The notes under the pieces are model-generated. The model was given only the letters and a program-made list of their open reading frames with translations, did no database searches and had not been told where the DNA came from. A program made the translations under genes and the position numbers. A DNA stretch of 64,000 bases from Streptomyces parvus (GTDB taxonomy: Bacteria; Actinomycetota; Actinomycetes; Streptomycetales; Streptomycetaceae). How positions within the stretch are numbered: position 1 is the stretch's first letter; every line of letters begins with the position of its first letter. This document shows positions 3,358-22,757 of the stretch, piece after piece. The stretch is from NCBI RefSeq assembly GCF_014648875.1, contig NZ_BMRY01000007.1, positions 124,001-188,000 on the forward strand, in the 5' to 3' direction.

Positions 3358-4302
3358 TCAGCGGCTGCGGCGCGGGGTCGACGCGCTGGCCGACGGCCGG
3401 GCCGCGAGAGCAGGCGCGGGACTCCCGGACGGGTTCAGGGCCGAAGCCGACGTGCGGCTTCGGGCGGCCATGACCCGGAGGTCGGCGGCCGTCCGGGGGA
3501 ATCGCGCGGCGCGTTGGACGGCCTGCGTGACAGCCGTGCGGCGTACGTCGAGGGGAGTGGGAGCCCGGGGAACCTGGGGTGTGCTCGGAGTGACAGCGGT
3601 GAGCGAGACCAGGTGTGCCACCTCACGGTGGATCTGGTGGCGCTCGCGTACCACCGGGGCTGGATCGGCCATGACGGCTGCCGTCGCGGCGATCAAGTGG
3701 GTGGGCGTACGGGCCGAGAAGATGGCCTCCGCACGGGTGCCCCAACCGGGTGGACCCGACCAGAGGGTGACGGCTTCGTCATCATGACGGGAGAGACGGT
3801 TGTCGATGAGGACGCCTGCTTGTCCGTCCGGGGCGATGATCTCGACGGTGCCGAGTTCGGCCCCGCCGTGGCGGGGCCAGCCGGCATCGGTCAGCGGTTG
3901 GACGGCGTCGGCCCAGCGGTATGACGGGCTCGCCAGAAAGCGCCCGTTGCCCTCGTACGCATCGGCTTCGGCGTAGTCGTGAGCGAGAGCGGTGGTCAGG
4001 CTGGCGACGATCTCGGCCGGGGTGACATGGTTGAAGGTCGCTGTCCAGCGGGGTGAGGAGACGGCTTCCTCGGATGCGGCGATCTTCCACAGCTCGAAGT
4101 CGTCGCCGAACCAGCCGATGCGGATCCTCTGGTCGGGCGACGTGACGAGGAGCTGGCAGGGACCATCATCGAGGTAGTGGTGCGGCCAGTGAGCGACAGG
4201 GGCGAAGCCGGCGTCTCCGGCTCCGTTGGAACCGGCCAGGTACATCGGGCTGACCAGTACCTCCTGGTACAGATAGTTGTCGGTGGGCTGCTGGACGCTC
4301 AT
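3358..4302 (-). CDS. Tandem DUF317 protein with C-terminal tail
   Basis: 314 residues from the ATG at 4300-4302, which has GGAG nine bases upstream. Two DUF317-like units are visible: residues about 25-115 (IRIGWFGDDFELWKI, then WTATFNHVTPAEIVASL) and about 125-215 (a second beta-rich copy ending in PTHLIAATAAVMADP). The end shows a tail variant, VMAARS followed by 32 Ser/Ala/Pro-rich residues ending PRRSR. DUF317 proteins often accompany Streptomyces conjugative elements; no activity is established. Confidence 0.7.
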   Translation of the reverse strand: MSVQQPTDNYLYQEVLVSPMYLAGSNGAGDAGFAPVAHWPHHYLDDGPCQLLVTSPDQRIRIGWFGDDFELWKIAASEEAVSSPRWTATFNHVTPAEIVASLTTALAHDYAEADAYEGNGRFLASPSYRWADAVQPLTDAGWPRHGGAELGTVEIIAPDGQAGVLIDNRLSRHDDEAVTLWSGPPGWGTRAEAIFSARTPTHLIAATAAVMADPAPVVRERHQIHREVAHLVSLTAVTPSTPQVPRAPTPLDVRRTAVTQAVQRAARFPRTAADLRVMAARSRTSASALNPSGSPAPALAARPSASASTPRRSR

Positions 4303-4426: not shown

Positions 4427-5266
4427 TCACCGCCCCCGGCCCGGGGCCGACCGGGCGGTGACAGCCGCCGACACCCGGGGCTGGGGCTGCGTCGCGTGGC
4501 TGAACAGGTCATTCGGCGCGGCACTCCGGCGCAGGGCTGCTGCGGTCCGGGCACCGTCCCCCGTCAGCGGGACATTCGTATGGGTCCGCGTTGCCGCCGC
4601 GACGCGAGCGGGGCTCGACGAGGTTTTGAGCGCGGTGAAGGGTTCGCTCCAGTGCTCGATGGTTGCGTAGACGGCCCCCAGCGACTGGCCGGCATCGGTC
4701 AGGACGTAGGGGGCGCCGTGGTGCGAACCGGCGCGTCCGACCAGGCCGTCGGCCTGCATCCGCAGAAGCCGGTGCCGGGCGGAGGGGCGGTCCACGCCGA
4801 TCTCCTCGGCGATGTGACTGAACCGCAGAGGGCCGTTAGTGCCGAGGGCCTGGATAACGCCGGTCGTGTGCCGAAGGTTTAGACGGCCCAGAGCGTCCTC
4901 GACGCGTTCGGCTTCGGCCATCGTCTGGAGCGGCAGGTGGGCCCGGGACCAGTCCGACAAGGTGCGGTGCACGGGGGCGAGCGACTCGCCGAGCGCGCTG
5001 AGCTGGTAGGTGCCCCTACGACGGACATCGGAACGGGTGATCAAGCCGTCGGCCTGCATGTACATCAGCCGCTGGCTTACTGACTGCTCGCCGACGAAGG
5101 GGAGCTGGGCGGAGATCTCGCGCACCCGCATGGGGCGGTTTTCCTGGGCGAGGATCATCGTGGACCAGGTGGTCCACTTCGGCCCGATCCGGGCAATCGC
5201 GTGGTCGATGCGCTGAGGGTCGACCGAGTCGAAGCAGAAGGCGGGGGGCTGCGTGGGGCTGGGCAT
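4427..5266 (-). CDS. Tandem HxlR-type winged-helix protein with tail
   Basis: 279 residues. The start (ATG 5264-5266) has GGAGAGAG upstream. Two HxlR-like winged-helix modules are seen: residues about 15-100 (IGPKWTTWSTMILAQ, then QRLMYMQADGLITRSD) and 120-205 (RHTTGVIQALGTNGPLRFSH, then HRLLRMQADGLVGRAG). HxlR proteins normally have one module and act as dimers, so this may be a built-in pseudo-dimer. The C-terminus ends in the element's tail (AAALRRS plus 31 residues, last RGR). It could regulate the element or act in a recipient if exported; neither is shown. Confidence 0.7.
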   Translation of the reverse strand: MPSPTQPPAFCFDSVDPQRIDHAIARIGPKWTTWSTMILAQENRPMRVREISAQLPFVGEQSVSQRLMYMQADGLITRSDVRRRGTYQLSALGESLAPVHRTLSDWSRAHLPLQTMAEAERVEDALGRLNLRHTTGVIQALGTNGPLRFSHIAEEIGVDRPSARHRLLRMQADGLVGRAGSHHGAPYVLTDAGQSLGAVYATIEHWSEPFTALKTSSSPARVAAATRTHTNVPLTGDGARTAAALRRSAAPNDLFSHATQPQPRVSAAVTARSAPGRGR

Positions 5267-5289
5267 GAGTGCGCTCTCTCCGGTAGGGG

Positions 5290-6779: not shown

Positions 6780-7246
6780 CGCTGGGGAGCCTTTCGAGAG
6801 GCAGCGGCCGGAGACTGGACTGCTGCTGGAGAGGTCGACGGAGCAGCCGCCGACTGGTTCGCAAGGGGCGAGCGGGCGCGGGCGGCCTGCACCCGGGCCG
6901 CCGTACGGGAGTCCGCCTCGGTACCTCGCTCAGGGCCGGTACGGAGGTGAGCGGAGCGGTAGACCGCGTAGTCCTTCCGGCTTCCGGCGGCAACGAGGTA
7001 GACCTCGCGCTTGTGGTTCGAGTCGGGCGGGGCCGGGCGGAACTGGATGACCATCCGGTAGGCGACGGACGGATCCACGTACACCTTGTGGTATCCGGCG
7101 AGACGCCCCTTCAGGGGTAGGCAGTCGTCGCTTCCGTGGACCAGGTTCTGTAGCTCCAGCAGCGCCAGATCACGGATGCGATCGGGGAGGTTCCGCAGAT
7201 CCTCAATGGCGTCGGGATGCGCCGCGAAGGCGAAGCGTGCGCTCAC
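6776..7246 (-). CDS. RelE/ParE-like toxin-fold protein with C-terminal tail
   Basis: 156 residues. Residues 1-100 resemble the RelE/ParE fold: N-terminal FAAHPDAIEDLRNLP with helices, then PLKGRLAGYHKVYVD, AYRMVIQFR and EVYLVAAGSRKDYAVY. RelE-family proteins are usually 85-100 residues, act as mRNA interferases or gyrase poisons and pair with an antitoxin. Here the domain is followed by a 50-residue tail with AARARS and 30 residues ending APQR. No standard antitoxin gene is adjacent; the coupled 222-residue downstream gene is the only candidate partner. A toxin domain plus the tail shared with the relaxase suggests a delivered effector, which is inference. Confidence 0.65.
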   Translation of the reverse strand: MSARFAFAAHPDAIEDLRNLPDRIRDLALLELQNLVHGSDDCLPLKGRLAGYHKVYVDPSVAYRMVIQFRPAPPDSNHKREVYLVAAGSRKDYAVYRSAHLRTGPERGTEADSRTAARVQAARARSPLANQSAAAPSTSPAAVQSPAAASRKAPQR

Positions 7247-8010
7247 AGCAGCCTCCCCTGTACCGAACGCTGTACCGGTACGGCTGCCGCGGACTGGTGG
7301 GCTCCAGGGGCGGTCTTCGGTATCTCGGAGCTGCCGGCCGAGCGGGCGAGGGCGGCACGGGTCCGGAGGGCGGCAGTTTCACCGAGGTGGTCCGGTGGCT
7401 GCGGCAGCGGGGTGCTGCGGTCGTCCAGCCAGCGGAGAGCGGTCTCCTCATCGGGGAAGGTGCCCTCGCGCAGCGTGTACGTGTGGGCGTTGGAGTCCCC
7501 CTCTTCGAGGAAGAGGCGAACAGGTGCCTGAGCGGCCTGACTGTCACGGGTCAACGTCCATGCTTCGCACGGGTCGTAGTCCGAGGTCTGGCTCTCGATG
7601 ACCTCGTACCGCGTGCCTGACTCCCGGATCTGTGCCTCGATACGAACGGTGAGATCGTCGGCGGGAGTGGAGAATCCGGCACCTACTTCGGTTATCTGCT
7701 CGGGTGGGCAGCCGTGCTCGATCAACCAGTTCTGGGCGAAGGGGACCGTGGCGTGGTAGGCCGTCTCCATGGTGAACGTGTTGAGGCTGAGATCCCGCGC
7801 CACCTTGATCGCGGCTACCTGCGGCTCGCCGGGGACACCCCACGTGACCGACCCGTCGTGAGCGACGACGTAGGAGTGTGAGCCGTGAGGAGCGGTGTGG
7901 TGCTCGGTCAGGACCGTCAGGTCACCGGACCAGAACTGCTGCTCCGCGTACTCCGAGTCAGCGTCGGCGGGTGCAAGATCGTCGAGGTGAAAGTCGAGTT
8001 CCGTGCTCAT
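7243..8010 (-). CDS. Hypothetical protein with AALARS tail
   Basis: 255 residues from ATG 8008-8010, which overlaps the stop of the DUF4913 gene by 4 nt. Residues 45-210 form an alpha/beta sequence with no recognised family (SYVVAHDGSVTWGVPG, QIRESGTRYEVIESQ). The C-terminus is a clear example of the shared tail: RTRAALARS followed by 31 residues. Its stop overlaps the RelE-like start by 4 nt, so DUF4913, this protein and the RelE-like protein are probably made together. Confidence 0.65.
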   Translation of the reverse strand: MSTELDFHLDDLAPADADSEYAEQQFWSGDLTVLTEHHTAPHGSHSYVVAHDGSVTWGVPGEPQVAAIKVARDLSLNTFTMETAYHATVPFAQNWLIEHGCPPEQITEVGAGFSTPADDLTVRIEAQIRESGTRYEVIESQTSDYDPCEAWTLTRDSQAAQAPVRLFLEEGDSNAHTYTLREGTFPDEETALRWLDDRSTPLPQPPDHLGETAALRTRAALARSAGSSEIPKTAPGAHQSAAAVPVQRSVQGRLL

Positions 8011-8606: not shown

Positions 8607-8644
8607 CGGGGCGTGCTCCATCTGTGAGACGGCGACATGCCCGA

Positions 8645-8694: not shown

Positions 8695-8699
8695 GGGCG

Positions 8700-9900
8700 C
8701 TACCCGCCCGCGCAGCGAGGACAACGAGGGAAGGGCGGTGCCAGCAACTGCAAGGCACGGGCGGCTTGTTGAGGGACGACGCCGTTGCCGAGCGCGGTGA
8801 GCTGCGCCGGTCGTCCGAGTCCCGGCGTGGCGGTGACCCAGCCGTCGTCGAGGCCCTGCATCCATTCCACGAAGTCGGCGCGGAGTCGTCCGGCCGCGTC
8901 GGTGGGCTCGGGGACGGGACGGGTGAGCATCTCCCATCGGGTGATCGCTGCTGCGTACGGCCCCCATCGCCGGTCCGCTCCGCGGACTCCGTCGACTCCT
9001 CCGTCCAGAGCGGCAGGACCACCGCCGACAGGGGAGGACGCCACCCCTTCCCCGGGCGGCGGCCCGGAGTCCCCGTGTCGCTGGCCCTCGGCGTGGGCAG
9101 CAGCGACGCTGCCGCACTGGGCAGGGTCATGTCCCCGTTGCCGTGACGCTGGTTCGGCGAGCCCTTGATCCCGTCCGACGCCTTCGGGGTCGGCAGCAGC
9201 AGCCACTCGACCTCGTCGGCCAGGTTCGGACCGTGCCCCCCGCTCTTCCTCTTCGACGGATGCTGCGAGCCGCCGTTCTTGCCGATGTTGCTGGTCGGCG
9301 TCTTCAGCAGGGTCTCCGGTGGGCCAGGCGGCGAGGAAGGTCCGTTCGCGGCGGTGCGGGGCCCCGACGTCGGAGGCACGAAGCACGAGCCATGTCGCGT
9401 CGTACCCGAGGTCGGCCAGGGATCCGAGTACGGCACCGAGTGCCCGCAGAGCAGGCTGACCTGTGGTGTCTCCCAGACACCACGGGCAGAATTCCACGTC
9501 GCCAGGGGAACCGGCGGGGGAGGTGAGGAGGCCGCGCACATTCTCGATCACAACCAGGCAGGGTCGGAGGGCATCGACCGCACGGGCGACGTGCAGCCAG
9601 AGCCCGGAGCGGGTCTGGGCGTTGAGACCGGCCCGGCGGCCAGCAACGGAGACGTCTTTGACAGGGGAAGCCGGCCGTCAGGACACACACCCGGGGAACG
9701 AGGGACCAGTTGACGGCTGTGATGTCGCCCAGATTCGGGATGCCCGGCCAGTGGCGGGCCAGGATGCGCGAGGCGTTCGGATCAACCTCGGCGTGCCAGG
9801 CCAGCGTCCCGCCAAGGGCGGACTGCACGCCCAGGTCCAGCCCCCCGTACCCCGAGCAGAGCGAGCCGATGAGCGGAGGGCGCACGATGGTGGTCCGCAT
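8700..9900 (-). pseudogene. DNA cytosine-5 methyltransferase with a one-base frameshift
   Basis: Corrected for one extra base this encodes a C5-cytosine methyltransferase of about 399 residues. Motif I is SLCSGYGGLDLG near residue 15, motif IV TAGFPCQ near residue 75 (catalytic Cys), motif VI IENVRGLL, motif VIII HRRERTF, and the C-terminal motif LGNGVVPQQAARAL. The frame breaks at 9657-9659 immediately after PCQ: the coding strand reads TGTCAAAGACG where TGTCAAGACG would keep the frame. As written neither half is active, unless ribosomes shift +1 at the rare AGA codon. An assembly error, decay or programmed shift are all possible. It begins just after the stop at 9902. Likely role: protecting the element's DNA from restriction. 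Confidence 0.8.
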
Positions 9901-9901
9901 G

Positions 9902-10483
9902 TCACCGCCCCCGTGTGGTCCGGCTCGGGGCAACAGCAGCCGGTGGAACGGTGGAGGGCGCTGCGGCGGGAAGCGGGGCTGCGGTTGTGGACCGGCTGAG
10001 GGCGGCCCGGAGCTGCCGGGGCGGAGGCGGCGCCGCTGCTGCCGCAGCGTAAAGGGAGTAGGAGGCGTCCCGGAGGGATGCGTCCGCCAGACCGAGCGCG
10101 TCACCTATCACCAGCGTGGCCGCTTCGCGCGCATCCATCGCGTCGGGCTGGTCGCGCATGTGCTCGGTTCGCTCCAGGAAGGAAAGCTGGTGGGCCACCG
10201 AGCCGAGCGCGGAGGCCACCTCCCCGGCAGGTTCTACAGCGGCGGCGAAGTCGCTGATGACCCTGGCCGTGTGGGCGTCCAGATCCGGAGACACGGTGCG
10301 GATGAGGATCTCGTCGCCCAGGGCGGTGATCCTCTTGCCGAGTTCCGAGATCTGCTTGGCGACCGTCACGCTGTCCGGTCCGCGGTGAGGATCTCCGGGG
10401 ATCGGGAGCTTGCCGCGTAGGGCGTCGAAGTTCTCGGCTGCGGTGCGCAGGGCTCGGGCGTCGGATACGGGGGTGGTGTTCAT
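9902..10483 (-). CDS. Helical protein with AALSRS tail
   Basis: 193 residues, mostly amphipathic helix up to residue 150 (SELGKRITALGDEILIRT, AAAVEPAGEVASALGSVA), then an Ala/Pro run and the shared tail: LRAALSRS plus 28 residues ending RTTRGR. No recognised domain. It lies between the DnaB-like and methyltransferase genes. Possibly a structural or delivered protein of the element; function unknown. Confidence 0.65.
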   Translation of the reverse strand: MNTTPVSDARALRTAAENFDALRGKLPIPGDPHRGPDSVTVAKQISELGKRITALGDEILIRTVSPDLDAHTARVISDFAAAVEPAGEVASALGSVAHQLSFLERTEHMRDQPDAMDAREAATLVIGDALGLADASLRDASYSLYAAAAAAPPPPRQLRAALSRSTTAAPLPAAAPSTVPPAAVAPSRTTRGR

Positions 10484-10521: not shown

Positions 10522-11691
10522 TCAGCTGGGGCCGAGGGACCGTGGTCGTACGGCGGCTGACCTGGGCGCACCTCGGGATAGTGCCGAGGGTGGCGAGGGG
10601 AGGCTCGGTGAGCTGCGGGCGAGGGCCGCCTGCACCTGGGCGGGGCGGGGCACGTTGCCCGAAGAAGCTGGGGTCTTCGGCGCCGGAGGCGGGTCGCCGG
10701 TCGCCAACTGCCAGCGGGTGCGCACCTCGTCGAGCGGACCGAGTACGTAGAGCGCGTGGTTGATCAGTGGCCCGGGGCCCAGGGCCTCGTCCTGGGCCAA
10801 GGCTCGGACGGCGCGCGCGGAAGCGGCTGCGGTGCGGGTCACGGAGGACCGCATGACCCGTTCACCCAGCCATTCCGCGCTGCCGGGGCCTACGCCGTCG
10901 CAGATCGCGGTGAGCTGCTCGCCCGACAGCGTGCCGTCCGCCAGGAGGCCCCGCCGCTGGGCTTCCCAGAGCAGCGTGACCCGGTCGATGGGCTCGCCCC
11001 GGTGGTGCAGGGCACCGAGACACCGGTAGAGCCGCCCATGGCCCGGGTCGGCGAAGTCCCCCGGCCGCAACCAGCCCACCACCTCCTCCATGCCCTTCGG
11101 CTGCTCCGCGAGGACGGCGAGCAGGAAACGCTCGTCCTCGGCAACCTGGTCGGCCTGAACCGTCGGCGTGGTCGGAACGGTGGTCGGCGGGGCTGGCGGC
11201 GCGACCGGACGCGGTTCGGTACCCCAGCGCCGCGCGAGATCGGTGAGCACCCCGGCCAGGACATCCGCCGACCGCAGCGCACCCTCGACCTCTCCCCGCA
11301 GGGCGTCGGTCCGAGCCGCCTGGTGAAGACGGATCGCGTGCTCGGCAACGGTCCGGTGGATCGCCCCCTCCAGCACCATGCGGCCGTACACCGGAGCATG
11401 CTCGGGACGCGGGCAGGCCGAGACCAGAGTGTGGGCGTACACCGCGGTCAGCCCTCGGACGTGACGGTCGGCCTCGACGACGGAGTCGGTCACCCACGAC
11501 AGAGGCACCGGACCATCAGCCGCTGCCGCCGGGTGACCGTCGTGTCGGAGCTTCCGCAGCGCGGTGAACAAGGCCCGGTGAACCGGACGGTCGAAGTGAT
11601 CGGGCGCGAGCCAGTCCAGGTGCGCGAGCTGGTTCGGGTCGAGCAGTACCGAGCCGAGGACTGCCTGCTCCGCCCGCAACAGCGGGTTCAT
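10522..11691 (-). CDS. DnaB helicase N-terminal-like protein without motor domain
   Basis: 389 residues. Two copies of the DnaB N-terminal helical domain are visible: residues about 3-110 (LRAEQAVLGSVLLDP, DHFDRPVHRALFTALRKL) and about 190-300 (DERFLLAVLAEQP, DPGHGRLYRCLGALHHRG, SGEQLTAICDG). No Walker motif or RecA-like ATPase follows; instead the protein ends with the shared tail QVQAALARS plus 29 residues. In DnaB this domain mediates hexamer packing and primase contact. A delivered DnaB-N duplicate might contact recipient replication proteins, but that is speculation. It overlaps the gene upstream by 4 nt. Confidence 0.7.
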   Translation of the reverse strand: MNPLLRAEQAVLGSVLLDPNQLAHLDWLAPDHFDRPVHRALFTALRKLRHDGHPAAAADGPVPLSWVTDSVVEADRHVRGLTAVYAHTLVSACPRPEHAPVYGRMVLEGAIHRTVAEHAIRLHQAARTDALRGEVEGALRSADVLAGVLTDLARRWGTEPRPVAPPAPPTTVPTTPTVQADQVAEDERFLLAVLAEQPKGMEEVVGWLRPGDFADPGHGRLYRCLGALHHRGEPIDRVTLLWEAQRRGLLADGTLSGEQLTAICDGVGPGSAEWLGERVMRSSVTRTAAASARAVRALAQDEALGPGPLINHALYVLGPLDEVRTRWQLATGDPPPAPKTPASSGNVPRPAQVQAALARSSPSLPSPPSALSRGAPRSAAVRPRSLGPS

Positions 11692-12172: not shown

Positions 12173-13958
12173 TCATGCCGACAGCTCGAAGTCGTCGTGG
12201 CCGATGGTCTTGGCGAGGGCTCGCTCGGTGATCGCCTTCGTGGCACGGGCGGAGGCCGGCCCGACGACCTTGGCGGAGGGCTCCTTGTACCAGGGCTTGA
12301 GGTTGAGCATGGCGACCCGGATCCCGGTGGCCAGCAGCAGCACCTTGCCCTTCGGGAGGGCGCGGATCGCGTCGGGCGGCAGGATCCGCTCGGTACGCAT
12401 GCTCACCGAGGTGGACTTGCCACCCTCGCTGGTCGACACCGAGGTGGTCTGGACGTCGTGGTCACCGACCTGCCGACTGAGACGGTCGGCGAAGTCGGCG
12501 TCATCAATGCCCGAACCGATGATCTTGACGGTGGCGGCGGAGTACAGGGCGTCCATCCCGGCCTCGCCCCAGCACCGCTGGCCCTGCCGATAACTCTGCA
12601 AGATCGTCATCGGGATCACGCCCCGGCTGCCCAAGTGGCTGTAGAGATCGGGGAGATCGGATATGCGGCAGACGTTCGCGGCCTCGTCGAGCACGCACAG
12701 AGCAGGCGGGTCGAGTCGCCCGCCGGAGCGCTCGGCGACGATGACCGCCGCGCGCATGACGGCGTCGGCCGCCGCCGCGATGATCGCGCTCGCGCTGCCG
12801 CCGCCGTCCTTGCTGAGGAGGTACAGCGTGTCGCGAGACGTGGCGAAGGCGAAGGGCTTGAACTCGGGGAGGTCCTCGTTCGGGGTGACCCAGGCGGCGA
12901 CGTCGGGGTCGAGCAGGCAGCTCGCGTACTGCCTCGCGGTCTCAAAGATGCCATCGCGGGTTTCGGTTGCGCCGGAGACGGTGCCCTGGAGCTGGGCGGC
13001 GACCGCGTCGTGGCCGGCGTCGGTGAGCAGGTCCACCGGGGTGCGGTCGGCCGGGGTGGCGAGCCAGGCCAGGACGTCGGTGATCGGCCGCCGGTGGCTG
13101 GCGGCGGCCAGGAACAGCGCGCCGAGGGTGTTGCTCGCGGCGGTGGACCAGAAGTCGGAGCCCGACGACTCGTCCACGCTCGCGGAGACGAAGTGCCCGG
13201 CCAAGCGTTTCGCCCCAGCCAGGTCGCGGGCGTCGGCCAGGATGTCCCACCACATCTCTCGCGGATGGTGAGCGATCTGCTGCGGATCGAGGACCCAGAG
13301 CGTGCCGACCTCGGCGCGGGCGTCCACCGTCGCGGTGAAGGCGTCGTTCGCGGCCTTGTTACTGGTGAGCAGGACCGGGCCGGGAGCCGAGAGAATCGCG
13401 GGGATCGCCAGTCCGGACGTCTTCCCGCTGCGCGGGGCCATGATCGCGACGATCACGTCCTCCCAGGAGGCCCGGACCTCGGCGCGACCGGGGTCGAGGG
13501 TGCCGAGCAGGATGCCGCGGTCGGCGGGCGCGACCTCTTTTACGCTCCCGGTCGCTGAGGGAGGGCCGGAGACTCTTCGCCTTCGTGGTGCTCTCCTTGT
13601 CCAGCAGCGGTGCCAGCTCGCCCTTCCGGGCGAGGCCGGTCCTGGAGCCGGAGCGCCAGCGCATCCACAGCACGAGGCCGGTGGTGGCCAGGGCCAGAGT
13701 GATCAGGCCGGGGACGAAGCGCACGCCGACCAGCAGCGCTGTGGTGCTCAGGGTCGGCCACAGCATCTCGGGGTGCAGTAGGGCGTCCGTCGCGCGGAAC
13801 GGGATCCACGGTCCGCTGCCGACAAGGGAGTTGGTGACGTTGCCGGTCAGCCAGGCGAGGGAGCCGAAGGATATGGCGGCGCCGAGGACGCCGAAGAGGA
13901 GGTAGAGGAGCGCGTCCGACCCGGTGGTGGTCGAGGGCGCACTGGTACGTGGGGGCAC
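12173..13958 (-). pseudogene. VirD4/TraG-like coupling ATPase with a one-base frameshift
   Basis: With one extra base removed this encodes about 594 residues of a type IV coupling protein: two membrane helices (about residues 17-40 and 65-95), Walker A APRSGKTS near residue 175, Walker B-like ALCVLDEAANVC, and the family pattern IPMTILQSYRQGQ. Coupling proteins dock the relaxase-DNA complex and other substrates at the channel and pump DNA. The break is at 13538-13541, where the coding strand reads CGTAAAAGAGG instead of CGTAAAGAGG, between the membrane part and the ATPase. The start is GTG 13956-13958 with AAGGA upstream. An intact ATPase frame from 13456 would lack the membrane anchor. A functional element needs this gene, so an assembly error or a recoding event deserves testing. 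Confidence 0.8.
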
Positions 13959-14053: not shown

Positions 14054-14149
14054 TCAGCGCTCGTGGCTGGCAGGCCGGGCCATGGGCGGGGGCGGCGTGG
14101 CGGGCGCCGGAGCACTGATCTCGACGCCGGCCAGGACGACCTGAGTCAC
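14054..14149 (-). CDS. 31-residue peptide coupled to the relaxase
   Basis: A GTG at 14147-14149 overlaps the relaxase stop by 4 nt, the pattern seen for many genes of this operon, and opens a 31-codon frame ending in RPASHER. The first half is hydrophobic (TQVVLAGVEI), the second Pro-rich. It could be a real small protein or a translational link to the VirD4 gene downstream. Evidence is limited to the overlap and codon use. Confidence 0.3.
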   Translation of the reverse strand: MTQVVLAGVEISAPAPATPPPPMARPASHER

Positions 14150-15417
14150 AGTCGAGGGCCTGGCGCGCGCGGCGGGATGCTGGCCGCGCTGGGCTGCGTC
14201 GATCGAGCGTCGGGAGACGCGGAGACCTGAGCCTTGGCCGCTGCAGGTGAAGCGGCGACGGCGGCGCCTCGGAATTGGGGGAGCCATCGAGAGCGCGTCT
14301 GCGCCTGGTCCGAGGGCTGTTGTGGACGGCCGACACCGAGCAACTCGTCGTCTGAATCAACGAGTTCCGACATGGCCGAGTGGACGAAGTCCTCGGCGAA
14401 GCCGAACCGGTCGGCGAGCTGGAACGCCCCATCGTCGAGATCGGTGATCTGCTCCCCTGCCGCCTCCAGCGCCTCCCGGATGCGCTCCAGCGCGCCGTGC
14501 TCGGGATCAAGGAGGTGGTCGAGAGCCTGCTTCAGGTCGGCGCCGGTCTCGGCAGACCTGATCTGTTCGGTGAGCCGGAGGAGTTCCGCCCCGGCGGCGT
14601 AGGGCCCGAGCGGATTCGCAGAGGTGAACGCCTTGGTGGTGTCCAGGGCAGGGTCGAGGTCGACACCGTAGCGAGCGGCGCGGAGCATCTCGGCAGCGTG
14701 GGTGGCGATGGCCGCCCGGTCATCGGTCGGGGTAGTGGTGGGGAGGCGGTGACGTCGGCCGTACCAGTCGTCGATCTGCTGGAAGCCGGCGTGCTTGAGG
14801 AGCGTGGCGGACAGGTCGTCGCTGGCGCCCTTGGCCGAGACGCTGCCGCTGGGCTCGGCGGTGATGGTGATGGAGGGAGAAGGCATGCGGGTCTCCTGGG
14901 TGCGGGGCGTCGATTGCGGAGCGATGGGCAGGTGGCCCAGCTCGGCGAGAAGATGGCACTCGGATTGCAGACGGAAGGCGTCGCGATAGCCGTTGTGCAG
15001 GCTTCCATCCTCGCGAGCGATGGTGGCCACGACGTGCACCTGCCGTGGCCGGTTACGTACGACGATCCACCGACAGGCATCCGGATCACCTTCCGGAGCG
15101 ATCCCGGTGACGTCCACCAAACGCCGGGCGACAGCGGCCCACTGCGCGTCGGTGAGGTCCGGCTGCCGAGGATCGGAGCGAACCGAGCAGATCCACGTCG
15201 GCTGCGCGGGTACACGAGTACCGAGCCGTTCGACGGGTGCGTCGAGGGCGTGCGCCAAGTAGGGCAGCGAGCCGGGCTCGGCAAGCAGTTCGATCGGGGC
15301 TCCGTGACCTTCGCCCGCGATCAGCCGAGGGCTGACGTGGTCGCCACGTTCGCCGGGACCGTACAGGTACGAGAGCAGCCCCATGGTGTTGCTGGCACGC
15401 TGCAGGTGAGCGATCAC
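14146..15417 (-). CDS. Relaxase/mobilisation nuclease
   Basis: 423 residues. The N-terminus has the relaxase pattern of actinobacterial elements: MIAHLQRAS, GLLSYLYGPG, HVSPRLI, then CRWIVVRNRPRQVHVVATI with the metal-binding His near residue 128. It should nick the transfer origin and travel covalently with the strand through the VirD4/VirB machine. Residues about 208-262 form a module (LKHAGFQQ, then RHRLP, then MLRAARYGVDLDPAL) also seen in the proteins at 16146 and 17008. The C-terminus is a tail variant, AAVAAS plus 33 Ser/Ala/Pro-rich residues ending PGPRL. Start GTG with GAGG eight bases upstream; motif copy 2 lies 58 bp before it. Confidence 0.8.
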   Translation of the reverse strand: MIAHLQRASNTMGLLSYLYGPGERGDHVSPRLIAGEGHGAPIELLAEPGSLPYLAHALDAPVERLGTRVPAQPTWICSVRSDPRQPDLTDAQWAAVARRLVDVTGIAPEGDPDACRWIVVRNRPRQVHVVATIAREDGSLHNGYRDAFRLQSECHLLAELGHLPIAPQSTPRTQETRMPSPSITITAEPSGSVSAKGASDDLSATLLKHAGFQQIDDWYGRRHRLPTTTPTDDRAAIATHAAEMLRAARYGVDLDPALDTTKAFTSANPLGPYAAGAELLRLTEQIRSAETGADLKQALDHLLDPEHGALERIREALEAAGEQITDLDDGAFQLADRFGFAEDFVHSAMSELVDSDDELLGVGRPQQPSDQAQTRSRWLPQFRGAAVAASPAAAKAQVSASPDARSTQPSAASIPPRAPGPRL

Positions 15418-15474
15418 GGCGTCTACCTCGAAGGAGTAGTGGACACGAGCCGGGCGTTCGGGCCGTCAGACGGA

Positions 15475-15524
15475 GAGGATCCGCAGAATCCGCGATTTGG
15501 ACCGGCCGGAGTTCGCTGGTAAAT
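15475..15524 (-). promoter_or_regulatory. Recurrent upstream motif, copy 2
   Basis: Second copy of the block described at 8645-8694. The core on the minus strand reads CCAAATCGCGGATTCTGCGG. It lies 58 bp before the relaxase GTG and between that gene and the stop of the gene at 15622, so it probably drives or controls relaxase transcription. Confidence 0.5.
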
Positions 15525-15621
15525 GCCGCCGTCTATCCCGAGGCATCGGGGCCACGTAAGGCGACACGTTCGAGTGCGCCCGGCTTCCGCTGGTACGTGG
15601 CGAGGAGCGGTGGCGGGGCCG

Positions 15622-16119
15622 TCAGAAGTGAGGGTTCTCCGTTGGCCGGTCGGCCTCGCTGGCGGCCTGGAGCAGCTCGGCGAGGTCTCCGGGCTCGGAG
15701 GAGCGCTGGTCGATCCACCAACCGGCGCGAGTGACGAAGCGCGCGGCCTCCTCGATCGCCTCCCACTCCCTCTCATCGGTTTCCCCTTCGAGTACCAGGG
15801 CGGTGTAGGCAGCGGCGAGGACCTGGTGACGACAGCGCACGCCCCAGGCGACGGCCCGCTCGGTCCCCTCCAGCGGAGGCATCCGGTACTGCTCCGACCA
15901 GGCTTCCGACTCGGCCTGCTCTTCGGCTCGCTTGGTCTCCAGCCAGGCCGCCTTGTCCTGCTCGTCCCCCTCCTTGGCGGCCCGCCAGCAGTCCGTGCAC
16001 TCCTGCTTGGCGAGCCATTCGGCGAAGCCCGCGCGGCGATCGGCTGCCCGGCCGGACAGGTCGCGCTCGGTGTGGTGGCCGCACGAGTGGGTGATGGGCC
16101 AGATGGTCTTCACAGCCAT
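15622..16119 (-). CDS. Hypothetical protein with possible zinc site
   Basis: 165 residues. The start (ATG 16117-16119) is followed by HSCGHHTERDLSG and, about 30 residues later, ECTDCWR, a C/H arrangement able to hold one zinc ion. Residues 45-160 are helical and strongly acidic (EGDEQDKAAWLETKRAEEQ). It has no shared tail. It lies just upstream of the relaxase and may help process DNA or the relaxase, but no family is recognised. Confidence 0.6.
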   Translation of the reverse strand: MAVKTIWPITHSCGHHTERDLSGRAADRRAGFAEWLAKQECTDCWRAAKEGDEQDKAAWLETKRAEEQAESEAWSEQYRMPPLEGTERAVAWGVRCRHQVLAAAYTALVLEGETDEREWEAIEEAARFVTRAGWWIDQRSSEPGDLAELLQAASEADRPTENPHF

Positions 16120-16145
16120 GAGAACTGCTCCTTATGGAAGGTGAG

Positions 16146-16913
16146 TTAGCGATTTCGGGAGAACGCGATGCGCGGGTCGACGGGGCGACCCGAAGCCCCG
16201 GAGGCAGCGGCGGCGGGAGTCGGCGCCTTGTCCCGGAGGCCCGAGCGCGCTGGGCTCGCTGCGAGCGCGGCGGCGTTGCGAGATTTGTTGGGCGTGGCGC
16301 CCTGAACGGGGAGGAGGCGCTCGGCGCTCGTGGGCGCGGGAGCGCGGCGCAGCGCCGCGTCGTGGGCGAGGCGGGGATGAACAGCGACCTGGAGACCGGA
16401 CCGCTGCATCGCCACCGTGGCGCTGGCGACCTTCTGCACGGACTCGGTGCGGTCGGCGGTGACGGGCAGCGTGTAAATGTCCAGATTCGGGTCCAGCCGC
16501 CAGCCGTGCTCCTCCAGGATGAGCTGGCCGCCGAGCGCCGAGGATTGGTCGCTGGTGGCCGCAACGATGCCGAGCTGCGGATGCTCGGCGAACGCCACCT
16601 CGGGATCTGTGCGCGGGGCCCGGTCACGGGTGGAATTCGCACGGGAGGCCAGCGAGGGGTCGTACGCGGCGTCCACGTCGACCTGGTAGCTGGCCTCGCG
16701 CAGCAGCGCGACTGCCCGGGAGGTACGCCCCGGTCCGTCACGCTGCTGATCAGCCAGTGCGTACAGCGTCGGCTGGTCCGGTACGGGGTGGAAGTCGAGC
16801 CGAGCCAACATCCACGCGGTGGAGACGAGTTGCTTCGGGTTCGCGGCGACGATGCCGTGGTCAGGGTGGTGACCGAAGGCGACATCGGGAAGTGATTGGT
16901 AATGGGTGGGCAT
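16146..16913 (-). CDS. Tandem-repeat protein with C-terminal tail
   Basis: 255 residues made of two related modules of about 75 residues: the first starts DVAFGHHPDHGIVAAN, the second EVAFAEHPQLGIVAAT, each followed by a beta-helix-beta pattern (LARLDFHPVPDQ..YAL; LEEHGWRLDPNL..YTLP) and a helix ending V-x-V. The second halves resemble the module in the relaxase and the 17008 protein. The C-terminus has AALAAS plus 35 residues ending FSRNR. The ATG at 16911-16913 lacks a strong SD, so the start is approximate. Unknown function, probably linked to the relaxase. Confidence 0.65.
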   Translation of the reverse strand: MPTHYQSLPDVAFGHHPDHGIVAANPKQLVSTAWMLARLDFHPVPDQPTLYALADQQRDGPGRTSRAVALLREASYQVDVDAAYDPSLASRANSTRDRAPRTDPEVAFAEHPQLGIVAATSDQSSALGGQLILEEHGWRLDPNLDIYTLPVTADRTESVQKVASATVAMQRSGLQVAVHPRLAHDAALRRAPAPTSAERLLPVQGATPNKSRNAAALAASPARSGLRDKAPTPAAAASGASGRPVDPRIAFSRNR

Positions 16914-17007
16914 GGCTGATCCATCCGGTGTGGGCGTGCAGGGCAGGGGCCAGGTCCGGGATGGTTCTGGTGGTACGAGGCACGGAGGACTCCGAGAAGG
17001 GGGGCGG

Positions 17008-18159
17008 TCAGCGACCGGGGGCGGACGAGGGGCGGGCCGGAGGTACGGGACGAACGCCCGCCGCTGTGGCAGGGAGCGCCGGGGAAGCACAACGCTGCGC
17101 AGCCGTCGGCGAGGGGGCGAGAGCAGCACGTACCCGTGGTGGCGCAGGCGTCGACGCAGCGACCTGGTTCTCGCGGACCCGGTTCTTCCTGGGGTGCACG
17201 GCATGGCGGTCGGCCAGATCGCCGCGTATCGCGCGCAGCTCGATCGCGTAGGAGTCGAGGCTCTCAGCGATGGTACGCAGACGCTGTGCGTAGCGGTGAT
17301 CGGCTGGTTCGCCGAACCCTTCCCACCACTCGGCCGTCGTGTCGAGGATCTCCACGACCCGCTGAAGAACGCCGTCGCCCGGGGCGGTCACTTCGCTCAG
17401 GTTGGCGACCATGTCGCGCGTATGCGTCGACGCCTGGATGTGTTTGGCCAGAAACCCGAGGCGGTCGCCGAGGCTCGTCTCCGGGATCCAGGGGGGAGGC
17501 ATGTCGTGTTCCAGCAGGTCAGGGTCGCACGAGACATCGAAGCCGTCGGCCCGCAGCATGTCGAAGGCCCGGGTCACCACCAGCCGCTGCTCCTCCGGGT
17601 CGGTCATGGCCGAGGGCAGCCGGTGGTAGTGCTCACCGCCGAACTCGACGGCGGGGACAAAGCCCGTGCGGTGGAGAACCGCGTCGGCGGCGACGTCGTG
17701 AGCGAACCGTTTCGGCTCCGGTCGTGGAGGTACGCCGAGCTGATCCAGACGGGTGTCGACGGCGGCCAGCAACCTTGTGACGTCGCCGCGGTGCTGGGCG
17801 TGCGGGCCGTCCGGCTCCGAGTCGTAGATCACTTCGTAGGCTGCCGGCTCATCGCTGCGGTGGCGGGTGACGAGCCAGCTCTCGGGATACCCGGGTGGGT
17901 GCTCGCTGGACGGTTCCTGCGGCGGCGAGATGATCACGTCGCTGCCGTCTGGAAGCGAGGCATGGACGAAGTAGTCGCTGAGGCCGTACTCGACGGTGCA
18001 GACCAGGCCGCGTTGCCGAAGGGGGGAGGTGAGGTGCCCGTACCCGCGTTCGTGCTCCGGATCGCTGTCCGGCGCCCGTGAGGCAGCGGCCCCGCTTGCA
18101 CGCGCGGTGATACGCGCGCCCTCCCGTTGGAGGGTAACCAGGGGCTGATCGGGGGGCAT
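17008..18159 (-). CDS. Relaxase-module protein with C-terminal tail
   Basis: 383 residues. Residues about 30-145 hold a beta-rich segment (CTVEYGLSDYFVHASLPDG, ESWLVTRHRSDEPAAYEV). Residues 155-210 carry the module shared with the relaxase (LHRTGFVPAVEFG, HYHRLP, MLRADGFDVSCDPDL). Residues 230-320 are long helices. The end has RVRAALAPS and 33 Pro/Ala-rich residues ending APGR. It follows motif copy 3 at 18240. Sharing a module with the relaxase suggests a role at the transfer complex; no activity can be assigned. Confidence 0.65.
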   Translation of the reverse strand: MPPDQPLVTLQREGARITARASGAAASRAPDSDPEHERGYGHLTSPLRQRGLVCTVEYGLSDYFVHASLPDGSDVIISPPQEPSSEHPPGYPESWLVTRHRSDEPAAYEVIYDSEPDGPHAQHRGDVTRLLAAVDTRLDQLGVPPRPEPKRFAHDVAADAVLHRTGFVPAVEFGGEHYHRLPSAMTDPEEQRLVVTRAFDMLRADGFDVSCDPDLLEHDMPPPWIPETSLGDRLGFLAKHIQASTHTRDMVANLSEVTAPGDGVLQRVVEILDTTAEWWEGFGEPADHRYAQRLRTIAESLDSYAIELRAIRGDLADRHAVHPRKNRVRENQVAASTPAPPRVRAALAPSPTAAQRCASPALPATAAGVRPVPPARPSSAPGR

Positions 18160-18239
18160 TGGTGGTCTCCGTGGTCGAGCGCCCCATGGTCGACGACACG
18201 GGTCAACGTGAGGGGCGCGTGTATGGGTACCGGTGTTAT

Positions 18240-18290
18240 GAGGATCCGGAGATCGGCAGGTTTGGCCGAGCCGGAATGCGGTGGTAGTGG
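18240..18290 (-). promoter_or_regulatory. Recurrent upstream motif, copy 3
   Basis: Third copy of the block at 8645-8694. On the minus strand it reads ACTACCACCGCATTCCGG, then GGCCAAACCTGCCGATCTCC. It lies 81 bp before the gene starting at 18159 and directly after the stop of the gene at 18293. Confidence 0.5.
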
Positions 18291-18292
18291 CG

Positions 18293-18988
18293 TCAGCGGG
18301 ACCGATGGGGCGGCGTCGGCGACGCCGGAGGTACAGGGGGCGGGGTTGGTGGAGCTGTGCTGGTGCCGGAGGCGGATCGCTTGAGAGCCACTCGCGCCCG
18401 CTCGGTCTGCGAGGGCTGCTCGGATTCGGGCCGGTTGGTCACGTATTCAGCGGCCCGTACCAGCGCCGGACCGTGGAGCGACAGCTCGTGCGCGTCGTGC
18501 CAGCCCTCGGCGTTGCGGATTTCCTGGGCCCGGCTCTCGTAGAGCGCCCGGGTGCCGGGGAGGGAGCCGTCCATGATCGTCATGACGTCATCCCACTCGC
18601 GCTGGATCTGTCCGGCTCGTTTCAGGGCGGCATCGATGCTGCTCAGGCGCCGGAGATCCTCGCTGATCGGCCCCCCGAGGTAATCGGCACCGGTGGCTGC
18701 GGCGCGGACCCCGGCCAATACGTCGGGGCCGTGAGCGAGGAAGACCTCGACGTGTTTCCACGCCTGGGCGTCGCGTACGACCTTGCCGTCCGCGTAGCCC
18801 TTCTCGTCCACCGGCCAACCGTCGTGGTCGCAGAAGTAGTCCGAGACGGCGTCCCAGGCGTCTTCTGCCTGCCTGATGCCGGCAGAAGCGGAGGCCAGTG
18901 CCGGGACGTGTTGCCGCCACGCCATGTGGTCGTTGCCTGCCGGTGACTGATCTTCGTTGGGTGAGGGAGAGCTGGACGAAGTGGGCAC
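18293..18988 (-). CDS. Hypothetical protein with VALKRS tail
   Basis: 231 residues from GTG 18986-18988, chosen for AAGGA six bases upstream. Residues 35-195 are helical (AWRQHVPALASASAGIRQ, DAWDAVSDYFCDHDGWPVD, AQAWKHVEVFLAHGP). The C-terminus is the shared tail ARVALKRS plus 26 residues ending HRSR. The frame is open to 19243 and the extra 85 codons have good codon use, so either the protein is longer or a separate small gene sits there. No family recognised. Confidence 0.6.
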   Translation of the reverse strand: MPTSSSSPSPNEDQSPAGNDHMAWRQHVPALASASAGIRQAEDAWDAVSDYFCDHDGWPVDEKGYADGKVVRDAQAWKHVEVFLAHGPDVLAGVRAAATGADYLGGPISEDLRRLSSIDAALKRAGQIQREWDDVMTIMDGSLPGTRALYESRAQEIRNAEGWHDAHELSLHGPALVRAAEYVTNRPESEQPSQTERARVALKRSASGTSTAPPTPPPVPPASPTPPHRSR

Positions 18989-19263: not shown

Positions 19264-20769
19264 CTATCCCGTCATGCGTGCGTCAGTGTCGAAGAGTTCG
19301 CGTTCGGAAGGGTGGAGGAGGTGTTGGGTGACGAAGCTTCGTCCGGCGACCTTCCACAGGCCCCTGCCCTTGGTAAGGGAGGAGACGGCCTGGGTCTCCA
19401 CTCCGGTCAGCCCCAGCAGCGATGCCGCTGCCGCCAGTTGATCGCTCTCCTGCCGGTAGATGATGCGTGTGCTGCAGTCCGCGAGGAGCCCCTCGGCCAG
19501 TACCCGGCCGCGCGATCCGGCGTCGCCCGCGCTGAGCAGGTCGGAAAGCCTGTGGATGACCAGCAAGTTCGCGATGCCGAGCCCTCGGCTGAGCTTCCAC
19601 TGGCTCTGCATCCGTTCCAGCAGCGCGATGTGCTTCAGGACGCGCCATCCTTCGTCGTAGATCACCCAGCGTCGTCCGCCGGCAGGGTCTGCGAGAGCGG
19701 ACTCCATCCATGCGCTGGCGCAGGTCATCGCCAGCACCAGGCCGGTGTCGTCGCCTGAGTTACCGAGCCGGGAGAGGTCGATCGAGAGCATCGGCGTCGT
19801 CGGGTCGAAGGCGACGGTCGAGGGGGCGTCGAACATCCCGCTGAGGTCGCCGTGCACGAGCCGACGCAGGGCGTGGGCAAGGTCCTGAGCTGCGTGACCC
19901 ATCCCGCCGGCGGGGCTGCCGAAGCCGCGGTCGAGGCGGTCCGGCGAGCCCATGACATCGGCGATGTCGCCGAGGAGCGGCACCGTGCCGCGGACCTTGG
20001 CCTCGGCGACGACCAGGTCCAGGCCGAGGTCGAGAGCCGTGTGCTCCATCGGCAGCAGATCGCGGTTCAGCACGGTGCGGGCAAGACTGGCCAGCAGCGC
20101 GAGACGCCGTTTGCGTACTTCGACGGACCAGTCCTCTTCGGTCACCGACGCGGGCCGCGCCGGGGCATCCAGAGGATTAAGACGTCCGGGGAGCCCCGGT
20201 CCCAGGGCGATGGTGTGGCCGCCGAGAGCCTGCGCCACGTTCGACCATTCACCCTTCGGGTCGCTGGGCACATAGATCTTGTACCCGTGGGCGACGGCCC
20301 GCGTCGCGATCGACTTCGCCAGCGCCGACTTTCCCATGCCGATGATTCCCGCGAGCACGGCGTTGGGGTTGGTGAAGCCCTCGATCCGCCCGCTGGTGTA
20401 CAGGGCGAAAGGGTCGTAGCAGAAGGCGGCCTCCGCGTGCACGTCCCTGCCGATGAAGATCCCGGACGAGCCGAGACCACCCTCGGCAAGGAACGGATAG
20501 GCCCCGCTGACCGTGGCGGTCGTCATCCGGTGAGCGGGTAGCCGCAGCTTGCTGCCGCGCGCCGAGGCAGGTCCGGGGCGTCCGGACGCCGGGTAGACCG
20601 GTCGCAGCTCCGGGTCGAGGGCGGCCTCCTTGCGGTGCTTGGGCGGTGCCCCGGCCAGTTGTGCCTGGCGGCGGGCGGCGGCGAACCCGGCGCGGGCTGC
20701 GCGCTGTTGGGCGCGGGATGCCTTGCGGGGGACGAACAGGTGGGAGGCGCTGGCGCGGGTCCTAGGCAT
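19264..20769 (-). CDS. VirB4-like conjugation ATPase
   Basis: 501 residues. Walker A is GIIGMGKSAL at 141-150 and Walker B RRWVIYDEGW near residue 365, followed by the VirB4 pattern SRGLGIANLLVIHRLSDL and a C-terminal IIYRQESDQLAAAASLLG. The N-terminal 80 residues are basic and the N-terminal VirB4 domain is missing; it probably corresponds to part of the protein encoded just upstream at 21285, so the classical VirB4 seems to be split between two genes. It powers assembly of the secretion channel on the cytoplasmic face. No shared tail. Confidence 0.85.
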   Translation of the reverse strand: MPRTRASASHLFVPRKASRAQQRAARAGFAAARRQAQLAGAPPKHRKEAALDPELRPVYPASGRPGPASARGSKLRLPAHRMTTATVSGAYPFLAEGGLGSSGIFIGRDVHAEAAFCYDPFALYTSGRIEGFTNPNAVLAGIIGMGKSALAKSIATRAVAHGYKIYVPSDPKGEWSNVAQALGGHTIALGPGLPGRLNPLDAPARPASVTEEDWSVEVRKRRLALLASLARTVLNRDLLPMEHTALDLGLDLVVAEAKVRGTVPLLGDIADVMGSPDRLDRGFGSPAGGMGHAAQDLAHALRRLVHGDLSGMFDAPSTVAFDPTTPMLSIDLSRLGNSGDDTGLVLAMTCASAWMESALADPAGGRRWVIYDEGWRVLKHIALLERMQSQWKLSRGLGIANLLVIHRLSDLLSAGDAGSRGRVLAEGLLADCSTRIIYRQESDQLAAAASLLGLTGVETQAVSSLTKGRGLWKVAGRSFVTQHLLHPSERELFDTDARMTG

Positions 20770-21284: not shown

Positions 21285-22757
21285 TCAGGCCGCGAGCGCG
21301 AGCGGCATCGCAGCAGCGGTGAAGGCGCTGGCCTGCTGCCAGGTGAGCGGACGCAGGTCGAGTCCGGCACCGACCGCCGCGGTTTCCACCACCGCGCAGT
21401 CGGTACGCAGCTCCTCTTCGGAGTCGGCGGATACGGTCAGCAGACCCGTCAGAGCCACATCCGCATGACCGGCGATGAGCTGACGCTCACGCGCCTGGAT
21501 GTCCTGGTACTCGATCGCGTCCGCCTCGGATTCCACCTGGCCACGCCGCGCGCGCTCGGCGGCGTCCGCGACCACGCTCGCCTTCTTGCGCTGGATATCG
21601 CGCAGGGCAGCGTCCACGCTCACCGGCTCGTAGGCGAGCGAGAGAGTGCGGCGCACGCCTGCCGTGAACAGGAGCTGGTGGAGGAATCCGGCTCCGACTG
21701 TGGTGCGGGGCCAGTTCTCCACCCAGTAGGTGGAGTGGAACGCGGAGTCGGAGACGATGTGGTTGCCCTTCTCCACGACCACGACGGGGCCGGCGGCAGC
21801 GGGCTCGGCCTCGGGCCGGCCGGAGGCGGACCAGCGGTCCAGCGCGGGCAGGGCCTTGGGGTCGTACGCCGTGCGCACGACGGCCGCTATCTCGCGAGCA
21901 GTGAGCCAGCCGGTGGGGTTGAGCCCGGCGGTCCGCGCGGCCTGCTCGAAGGTCGACGTCAGTTGGGCCAGAACGCTGAAGCTGCCGGTGAGGCCGCCGC
22001 CCGCCCGGTTGATCAGCCGCTGCGCGGCCTTGGCGTCCAGGCTGATGGCGACGTACGCCTCGTGCGGCGCGGCGGCGGGGCCCGCGCTCTGGATCAGCTC
22101 CGTGTAGATCGCGCCCGCGAGAGGGGTGTCGGGCCGGCCGTGCTCCTCCCAGTACCGGCGAAGGGCGTCCCCGCTGTCGGGGACCGTACGCTCGACGACC
22201 TGGATGCGGGCGACGTGCCCGGTACGGGCCAGCGCGGCGAGCGCCCGGCCCCACCCGGCGACGTTCGCGCTCTGCGTGCCCGGGTCCAGGAGCGCGTAGG
22301 CGCGGGAGGAGACCTTGACGACGGCGGTCAGCGAACCGGTGTGGGGGTCGTGCACGGCACCGTACCGCCGGTCGGGCGCGGTGACTACACGCAGGCTGGC
22401 GGAGGTGCCCGGCAGATTGAGGTGCCCTTCGCGTACGGGACGTCGGGACGGGCGGGCGAGCCAGATCAACTGGCCCCGCATCCGGCGCAGCGCGTACCGG
22501 AGGACGATCGGCGTCCAGTCGGCCAGGGACCGACCGCGCTTGCGGACGAACACGAGCAGGGCGATGGCGCTCCACAGCGGGATGAGCTGGAGCGCGCCGA
22601 CGACGCCACGGGTCATGATCACGGCGAGTAGCAGCAGCCCGGTGAGCCCGGTGACGATGAGCTGGGGGACGGTCAGGCCGAGCAGTACGCCTCGGCGACT
22701 GCGGTGCGGGAACTTGACGGTGGCCGTGGCGGTTTCGGCCTGGGATCGGGCAGACAT
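21285..22757 (-). CDS. PrgI/VirB3 plus VirB4-N-like membrane protein (SCO6880-type)
   Basis: 490 residues. Two membrane helices at about residues 25-48 and 54-70 with a basic N-terminus match PrgI/VirB3-like subunits. Residues 110-490 form a large cytoplasmic domain (GSLTAVVKVSSRAYALLDP, NHIVSDSAFHSTYWVENWP, GHADVALTGLLTVSADSEEE) like the N-terminal half of VirB4-type ATPases without the Walker motifs. I recall this architecture as the S. coelicolor SCO6880 family. A SD box (AAGGAG) 80 bp upstream serves a short out-of-frame leader at 22822, and the ATG at 22755-22757 has no clear SD of its own, so initiation may be coupled. Confidence 0.75.
   Translation of the reverse strand: MSARSQAETATATVKFPHRSRRGVLLGLTVPQLIVTGLTGLLLLAVIMTRGVVGALQLIPLWSAIALLVFVRKRGRSLADWTPIVLRYALRRMRGQLIWLARPSRRPVREGHLNLPGTSASLRVVTAPDRRYGAVHDPHTGSLTAVVKVSSRAYALLDPGTQSANVAGWGRALAALARTGHVARIQVVERTVPDSGDALRRYWEEHGRPDTPLAGAIYTELIQSAGPAAAPHEAYVAISLDAKAAQRLINRAGGGLTGSFSVLAQLTSTFEQAARTAGLNPTGWLTAREIAAVVRTAYDPKALPALDRWSASGRPEAEPAAAGPVVVVEKGNHIVSDSAFHSTYWVENWPRTTVGAGFLHQLLFTAGVRRTLSLAYEPVSVDAALRDIQRKKASVVADAAERARRGQVESEADAIEYQDIQARERQLIAGHADVALTGLLTVSADSEEELRTDCAVVETAAVGAGLDLRPLTWQQASAFTAAAMPLALAA

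Follow-up and report, generated by a model that had tools for sequence, protein, structure and literature searches.

A repeated unit and a shared C-terminal tail in a relaxase-like protein and its neighbors in a Streptomyces element

Why should the C-terminal part of a relaxase-like protein recur in the proteins encoded beside it, and what might it be for? The question is raised by a 64,000-nucleotide stretch of the 8.03-Mb genome of Streptomyces parvus (positions 124001-188000 of contig NZ_BMRY01000007.1, or C7; hereafter the window), in which the genes from 3 to 26 kb lie on the minus strand and form a conjugative-type element. Three neighboring genes of this element encode the relaxase-like protein, the 16146 protein, and the 17008 protein (the numbers are positions in the window), and together these contain four homologous units of about 80 residues, one in each of the relaxase-like and 17008 proteins and two in the 16146 protein. 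The explanation preferred here, with a probability somewhat short of even, is that the three form a relaxase-derived accessory family that is addressed, by a C-terminal tail, to the coupling ATPase of a type IV secretion channel.

Homology and predicted fold of the repeated unit

The initial annotation of this locus had proposed, from the letters alone, that a C-terminal unit of a relaxase is duplicated in two neighboring proteins, and profile-profile comparison (hhalign, with 30 column shuffles per pair reaching at most 3.6%) bears this out. The relaxase-like unit matches the 17008 unit (97.0%, E 1e-10) and the first 16146 unit (93.1%, E 3e-7), which in turn matches the second 16146 unit (96.3%, E 2e-9) and the 17008 unit (81.4%, E 1e-5). 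Compared directly, 16146 unit 2 matches the other two proteins weakly or not at all (22% to the relaxase-like unit; 1.6%, below its own shuffles, to 17008), and it is through unit 1 that it connects to the rest. Hidden Markov models (HMMs) built from 16146 relatives alone match the relaxase-like C-terminal region at one position in many genomes, including the window's own protein (18.5 bits, E 8.5e-4 among 9036 open reading frames (ORFs)). The 17008 protein directly matches the relaxase C-terminal parts of loci L047 and L035 (E 2.6e-14 and 2.4e-13) across the unit and the helical part C-terminal to it, and profiles from 79 related loci agree (relaxase unit-plus-helices against the window 17008 protein, 4.6e-13; reverse direction, 1.3e-11), with no match at E<1e-3 among reversed ORFs. 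At E 0.001, the combined unit profile has only these four matches in the window's genome.

The sequence pattern by which the unit had been recognized (L-x5-F, then H/Y-x-L-P, then V-x-x-D/H-P-x-L) fits three units closely (GF..RHRLP..VDLDPAL, GF..YHRLP..VSCDPDL, and GW..YTLP..VAVHPRL) and breaks down in 16146 unit 1, which has neither the L-P nor the V-x-x-D-P spacing. The units were correctly located, with bounds (residues 208-262 of the relaxase-like protein and 155-210 of 17008) that prove too short. For the 16146 protein, position 16913 is taken as the likely true start, since the listed start, 17204, falls within the 17008 gene.

No named Pfam or NCBIfam domain covers the unit, as had been anticipated. 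AlphaFold2 models of the relaxase-like and 16146 proteins predict both 16146 units as strand-strand-helix-strand-strand-helix-strand-helix (block means of 78-93 in predicted local distance difference test), with the first helix of unit 2 split in two; the relaxase-like unit is predicted to follow the same order and to be succeeded by four helices (residues 271-288, 292-303, 309-327, and 332-352) and a disordered tail. In VIA-align comparisons, relaxase residues 180-256 share the Protein Data Bank (PDB) chains 1s12 and 4mo0 with 16146 unit 1, and 4peo and 2idl with unit 2 (Z 4.6-5.9), so that the three modeled units agree in fold order and, indirectly, through common structural matches; given the tool's own note that Z below 8 can mean mere common arrangement, these values for predicted models indicate a common arrangement and not family membership. 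Foldseek against the PDB gave no unit match below E 0.35, and the search for solved relatives by sequence gave none that was convincing (best E 0.1). The Prp/TM1457, aIF1, XPB, and UvsW recognition domains were considered as names for the fold and set aside, all having Z below 8.

A likely relative emerged on plasmids. The best unit-profile match outside the window's genus lies ahead of a DUF3560 domain in locus L165 (8 of 246 genomes of the phylum matched), and a profile of the N-terminal region of DUF3560 proteins (15 sequences including L165, one of them annotated as a ParB-family protein) aligns with the combined unit profile over 74 columns at 96.5%, E 8e-10, the best of 40 shuffles giving 1.0%. 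Against single families the same profile scores 86.2% (relaxase-like), 85.6% (16146 unit 2), 47.9% (16146 unit 1), and 25.4% (17008), and tblastn with the L165 copy matched 164 records of actinobacterial plasmids. By these comparisons the unit appears to be a remote relative of the unnamed domain that precedes PF12083 in plasmid DUF3560 proteins; it is therefore not without relatives, though no searched library names it. The arrangements differ, in that DUF3560 proteins carry a single N-terminal copy, whereas the window unit is duplicated, lies C-terminal to a relaxase fold, and is followed by helices and a tail; PF12083 itself, present in L165, is not found in the window proteins.

Regarding function, the initial annotation had suggested that the unit may bind DNA near the nick site or hold the transfer complex together. 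Binding at or near the origin of transfer (oriT) in the service of a relaxase would accord with the conserved basic hairpin of the relaxase-like and 17008 units (GRRHRLP and YHRLP) and with the weak resemblance that both 16146 units show to the DNA-recognition domains of XPB and UvsW (Z 5.3-5.6, possibly mere common arrangement). Nevertheless, the 16146 units lack the hairpin, all four window units are acidic (net charge -2, -7, -4, and -5; mean -2.8 over 44 units), and the C-terminal part persists in relatives that have no nuclease domain (see below), all of which makes this reading quite improbable. Because the units are acidic, protein contacts are favored over simple oriT binding, and the unit would accordingly serve protein-protein contacts under the preferred explanation. 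That it holds the transfer complex together, or is addressed to it, is possible and fits the shared tail.

As a separate observation, five loci (L066, L069, L070, L072, and L059) have at least four unit-bearing genes close together, most of them with the basic-tail ending.

A relaxase fold that has lost its HUH pair

The N-terminal domain of the relaxase-like protein has retained the fold of its namesakes: the top 26 rows of its VIA-align search are relaxases, among them MobM (4lvk; Z 9.3, root-mean-square deviation 3.5, 145 aligned). It has this fold in common with MOBP-type actinobacterial relaxases (PF03432), and its sequence resembles plasmid "mobilization protein" matches; unlike them, it has neither the HUH pair nor a Pfam relaxase match. 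At the site where the canonical relaxases L002 and L003 (same genome) and L098 have RHAADHIHIVAT or a near variant, the window protein has RNRPRQVHVVAT. The H-x-H pair is absent from all 32 full-length proteins in which this domain is fused to the unit, as against 3/3 canonical relaxases. The last histidine is kept in 30 of the 32 and is a tyrosine in the other two. Thus the label "relaxase" holds for the fold and misleads otherwise, and the loss of the HUH pair suggests that the protein probably no longer nicks DNA. Continued activity with other metal ligands would be consistent with the preserved fold, the single retained histidine, and an LLxYLYGP segment whose tyrosines are kept in many relatives; it is nonetheless very unlikely, for of the three histidines of RHxxDHIH at most one is in place in any of the 32 proteins and none in two, and the whole nuclease domain is missing from a considerable share of relatives. 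A search of a limited set of literature for a degenerate HUH relaxase in Streptomyces returned nothing relevant.

Those relatives, 20 of the 52 aligned, have the C-terminal part without the N-terminal domain, and none of the 20 loci is among the N-domain matches. Of the 32 full-length genes, 30 have an ATG or GTG codon in frame just before the unit, at the column of M178. A Shine-Dalgarno sequence usually precedes this codon by 6 nt (GGAG in 23 genes), and 7 genes have an AAGGA-type sequence farther upstream. Where that column holds valine (17 genes), the codon is GTG in 16, compared with 212 of 748 valine codons across full-length genes, and the start site is present in 19/20 stand-alone C-terminal genes. 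Since this internal start site is conserved, the C-terminal part (unit, helices, and tail), which is a separate gene in many relatives, is probably also translated alone from within the relaxase-like gene. The 17008 protein presents a similar division, its two halves being encoded elsewhere in separate frames, or the C-terminal half by itself (L127:8163-9424 and L124:9105-9899). Twelve loci also encode, just upstream of the fused protein, a second degenerate paralog that consists of the N-terminal domain only and has none of the histidines (e.g., L149:11280-11858 and L092:7638-8156).

A canonical relaxase was found in only one of the 79 loci (L098), within the stretch examined. In the present genome one is encoded at C7:121258-123033 (L183:17258-19030), ending 0.97 kb to the left of the window; it passes the Pfam relaxase cut-off (32.8 vs. 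24.6 bits), lies near a DUF2637 gene with which it shares the other strand, and probably belongs to a second mobile element that abuts this one.

The shared tail and its possible address

Beyond the unit, the three proteins share a C-terminal tail with seven neighbors whose bodies are unrelated, in which an AALxRS-like motif, 24-33 residues short of the C-terminus, is followed by flexible chain and a basic terminus. Doubled DnaB N-terminal domains, doubled HxlR winged helices, and DUF317 are among these bodies, others being without a match; the DnaB pair (10522-11691) comes without the helicase ATPase, and the HxlR pair occupies 4427-5614. Proteins that lack the unit have the tail as well, and the tail is thus independent of the unit. 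In all three families tested, the motif columns show higher conservation than the other tail positions (0.84, 0.81, and 0.82 vs. 0.64, 0.52, and 0.61), and the last 40 residues of the window proteins have net charges of +3, +5, and +5.

A leave-one-out test, in which the remaining nine tails supplied the position matrix for scoring each one, with 2000 shuffles as background, placed the best site at the hand-picked one in 10/10 tails and gave p<0.05 for eight of them, compared with none of 34 other genes (15 from the element and 19 controls). In the 79 loci, a scan of 1360 genes gave 200 motif matches, of which 192 lie 20-40 residues from the end, as do 83 of 203 in 6117 rejected or shadow ORFs, some of which are probably real genes missed by the simple caller; 183 control genes of the same genome have a single match at that distance. 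A more general tail, rich in Pro, Ala, Ser, and Thr and ending in Arg, is found in 209/1292 genes of the 79 loci and 66/271 genes of 15 distant loci, and is rare in control genes (2/178). A relative-entropy sampler did not recover the motif (score 147.1 vs. a maximum of 147.0 in 12 shuffles), in our opinion because it rewards rare residues, and the leave-one-out test was used in its place.

The abundance of such tails in the loci relative to controls also bears on whether the element has simply decayed, leaving a dead relaxase and functionless low-complexity tails of GC-rich DNA. The loss of the HUH pair and the differences in gene content between loci would suit decay; yet the channel genes are kept, and the internal start, the tail motif, and the C-terminal residues are better conserved than the surrounding chain, so that this is the least probable of the readings considered.

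What the tail may do is suggested by precedent. Relaxases are the normal cargo of conjugation channels. In the BID system of alphaproteobacterial relaxases, toxins, and Bartonella effectors, the relaxase C-terminal domain and a basic tail recur on other proteins of the locus, and parts of one account describe BID domains and basic tails as a cargo signal common to relaxases, toxins, and effectors (PMC6509941). The window proteins likewise have positively charged C-terminal tails; in contrast to the BID four-helix bundle with its hook, the window unit is alpha/beta, its tail is also found on proteins without the unit, and transport is presumed. Similarly, the conjugation channel of the F-type plasmid pED208 is reported, in portions of one study, to carry at least 16 plasmid-encoded proteins, with C-terminal signals among those found; that system is Gram-negative, and those portions describe no tail sequence common to its cargo (PMC11288057). 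The status of relaxases as cargo, the BID precedent, and a conjugation system that carries proteins together favor an address to the coupling ATPase. Under this explanation, the three proteins would be an element-encoded accessory family built on the alpha/beta unit (strand-strand-helix-strand-strand-helix-strand), with one member attached C-terminally to a relaxase domain whose HUH metal site is gone, and the tailed proteins would dock at the coupling ATPase or cross with the DNA. A broader proposal, which is possible and more doubtful, is that in conjugative type IV elements of Streptomycetaceae some ten proteins with unrelated bodies are marked for export by one C-terminal tag, part of them arising by duplication of a relaxase's C-terminal unit; the relaxase would later have lost its nicking site, and protein delivery rather than nicking would be what preserves the gene.

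Several findings weigh against an address to the coupling ATPase. The ten tails were hand-picked from 25 element genes, and those of the relaxase-like (p 0.37) and 3358 (p 0.33) proteins are not significant in the single-sequence test. Of the 192 motif matches, 189 come from the window's own families and three sit on new bodies; because the matches fall mostly in the same families, the independent evidence amounts to about 10-13 families. Only 5/30 genes in window positions 1-27000 have the general tail, and in the 15 distant loci the motif is mostly absent (two of five matches of at least 11 bits lie 20-40 residues from the end). The helical part (residues 271-352) matches other helical proteins at Z 5-7, with no BID-like chain among its VIA-align matches, and the VirD4 and VirB4 ATPases were both not found in 4/65 full-size loci. 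Nucleic-acid binding is another role open to flexible basic tails.

The closest rival is docking without export, wherein unit and tail would bring proteins to a donor hub (relaxosome, replication, or partition) and only DNA and a true relaxase would be exported. The doubled DnaB N-terminal, doubled HxlR, and DUF317 bodies speak for such a hub, as do the presence of the unit on plasmid DUF3560 proteins and a ParB-family protein and the suitability of acidic units for protein contacts. By itself, however, it leaves unexplained both the occurrence of the tail on many unrelated bodies beside a secretion channel and the constant distance of the motif from the C-terminus, and it is considered unlikely, if less so than the readings of oriT binding, continued nicking, or decay.

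The address to the coupling ATPase would matter because the choice of protein substrates by Gram-positive conjugation channels is poorly known, and a short sequence-readable tail, borne by a relative of relaxases and by the proteins beside it, would offer a concrete candidate for a substrate signal. Likewise, the wide occurrence of a relaxase-like protein that lacks the catalytic pair is a caution that relaxase-based typing can count dead enzymes. In the limited set of literature searched, no description of the unit or the tail was found; a profile of the tail run against the whole genome at E 10 finds eight places, all within the element and all used to build it.

Genomic setting and feature positions

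The genes at 3-26 kb (Table 1) include those for a VirD4-type ATPase (12173), a VirB4-like ATPase (19264), an NlpC/P60 hydrolase, and PrgI-, TrbL-, and pilin-like proteins, and judging from these matches the set appears to encode a Gram-positive-type (monoderm-type) conjugation channel. The TraG-D_C and NlpC/P60 matches exceed their cut-offs, and those to VirB4, PrgI, TrbL, and TrbC-pilin fall below theirs; VirB4 is present in 60 of the 65 full-size loci. The PrgI-like protein (21285-22757) scores above the cut-off for EccE, a Pfam family of type VII secretion, as well (27.7 vs. 23.7 bits).

Table 1. Positions in the window of the units, tails, and associated features.
Feature	Positions	Strand	Evidence or remark
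Relaxase-like protein, 423 residues: degenerate HUH domain, unit, helical part, tail	14146..15417	-	
N-terminal relaxase fold, residues 1-165	14923..15417	-	VIA-align
Degenerate motif RNRPRQVHV (canonical relaxases RHAADHIHI)	15031..15057	-	
AGGAG, 6 nt before internal start	14893..14897	-	
Internal in-frame start codon M178	14884..14886	-	conserved
Relaxase-like unit, residues 182-268 (also given as about 181-263)	14614..14874	-	profile searches
Helical part common to 17008, residues 271-352	14362..14607	-	model and unit-plus-helices homology
Two-unit 16146 protein, 255 residues	16146..16913	-	likely true start 16913
16146 unit 1, residues 6-90 from 16913	16644..16898	-	
16146 unit 2, residues 104-188 from 16913	16350..16604	-	
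17008 protein, 383 residues: N-terminal domain, unit, helical part, tail	17008..18159	-	
17008 unit, about residues 145-225	17485..17727	-	
17008 part homologous to relaxase-like helical part	17170..17463	-	hhalign 98.1%, E 6.6e-14, 155 columns
Tail motif RGAAVAASPA, relaxase-like protein	14242..14271	-	not significant alone (p 0.37); conserved among relatives
Tail motif NAAALAASPA, 16146 protein	16248..16277	-	
Tail motif VRAALAPSPT, 17008 protein	17104..17133	-	
Tail motif ARVALKRSAS, 18293 protein	18368..18397	-	
Tail motif VQAALARSSP, double DnaB-N protein	10606..10635	-	
Tail motif LRAALSRSTT	9983..10012	-	
Tail motif TRAALARSAG	7333..7362	-	
Tail motif VQAARARSPL	6863..6892	-	
Tail motif TAAALRRSAA, double HxlR protein	4517..4546	-	
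Tail motif LRVMAARSRT, DUF317 protein (3358)	3451..3480	-	not significant alone (p 0.33)
VirD4/TraG-type coupling ATPase	12173..13456	-	TraG-D_C 4.8e-34
VirB4-type ATPase	19264..20769	-	NCBIfam CD1110-family VirB4-like 1.3e-18, below its cut-off

Judged by genus name, every close relative of the locus belongs to the Streptomycetaceae, and a relative of the 16146 protein is present in 61 of 200 genomes of that family; four plasmid records hold relatives, and the search of phages gave no match for this protein. Rfam returned nothing in window positions 1-27000 at E 0.5. Lastly, a non-coding DNA element of about 55 nt with tandem GCGGATTCT GCGGATCCT precedes the genes for the 8007, relaxase-like, and 17008 proteins (8641-8700, 15473-15529, and 18238-18293, minus strand); it occurs in 148 copies in 74 of 80 sequences, with all 145 copies outside the window in gene orientation, and may serve these genes as a common promoter or operator, or be a leader.

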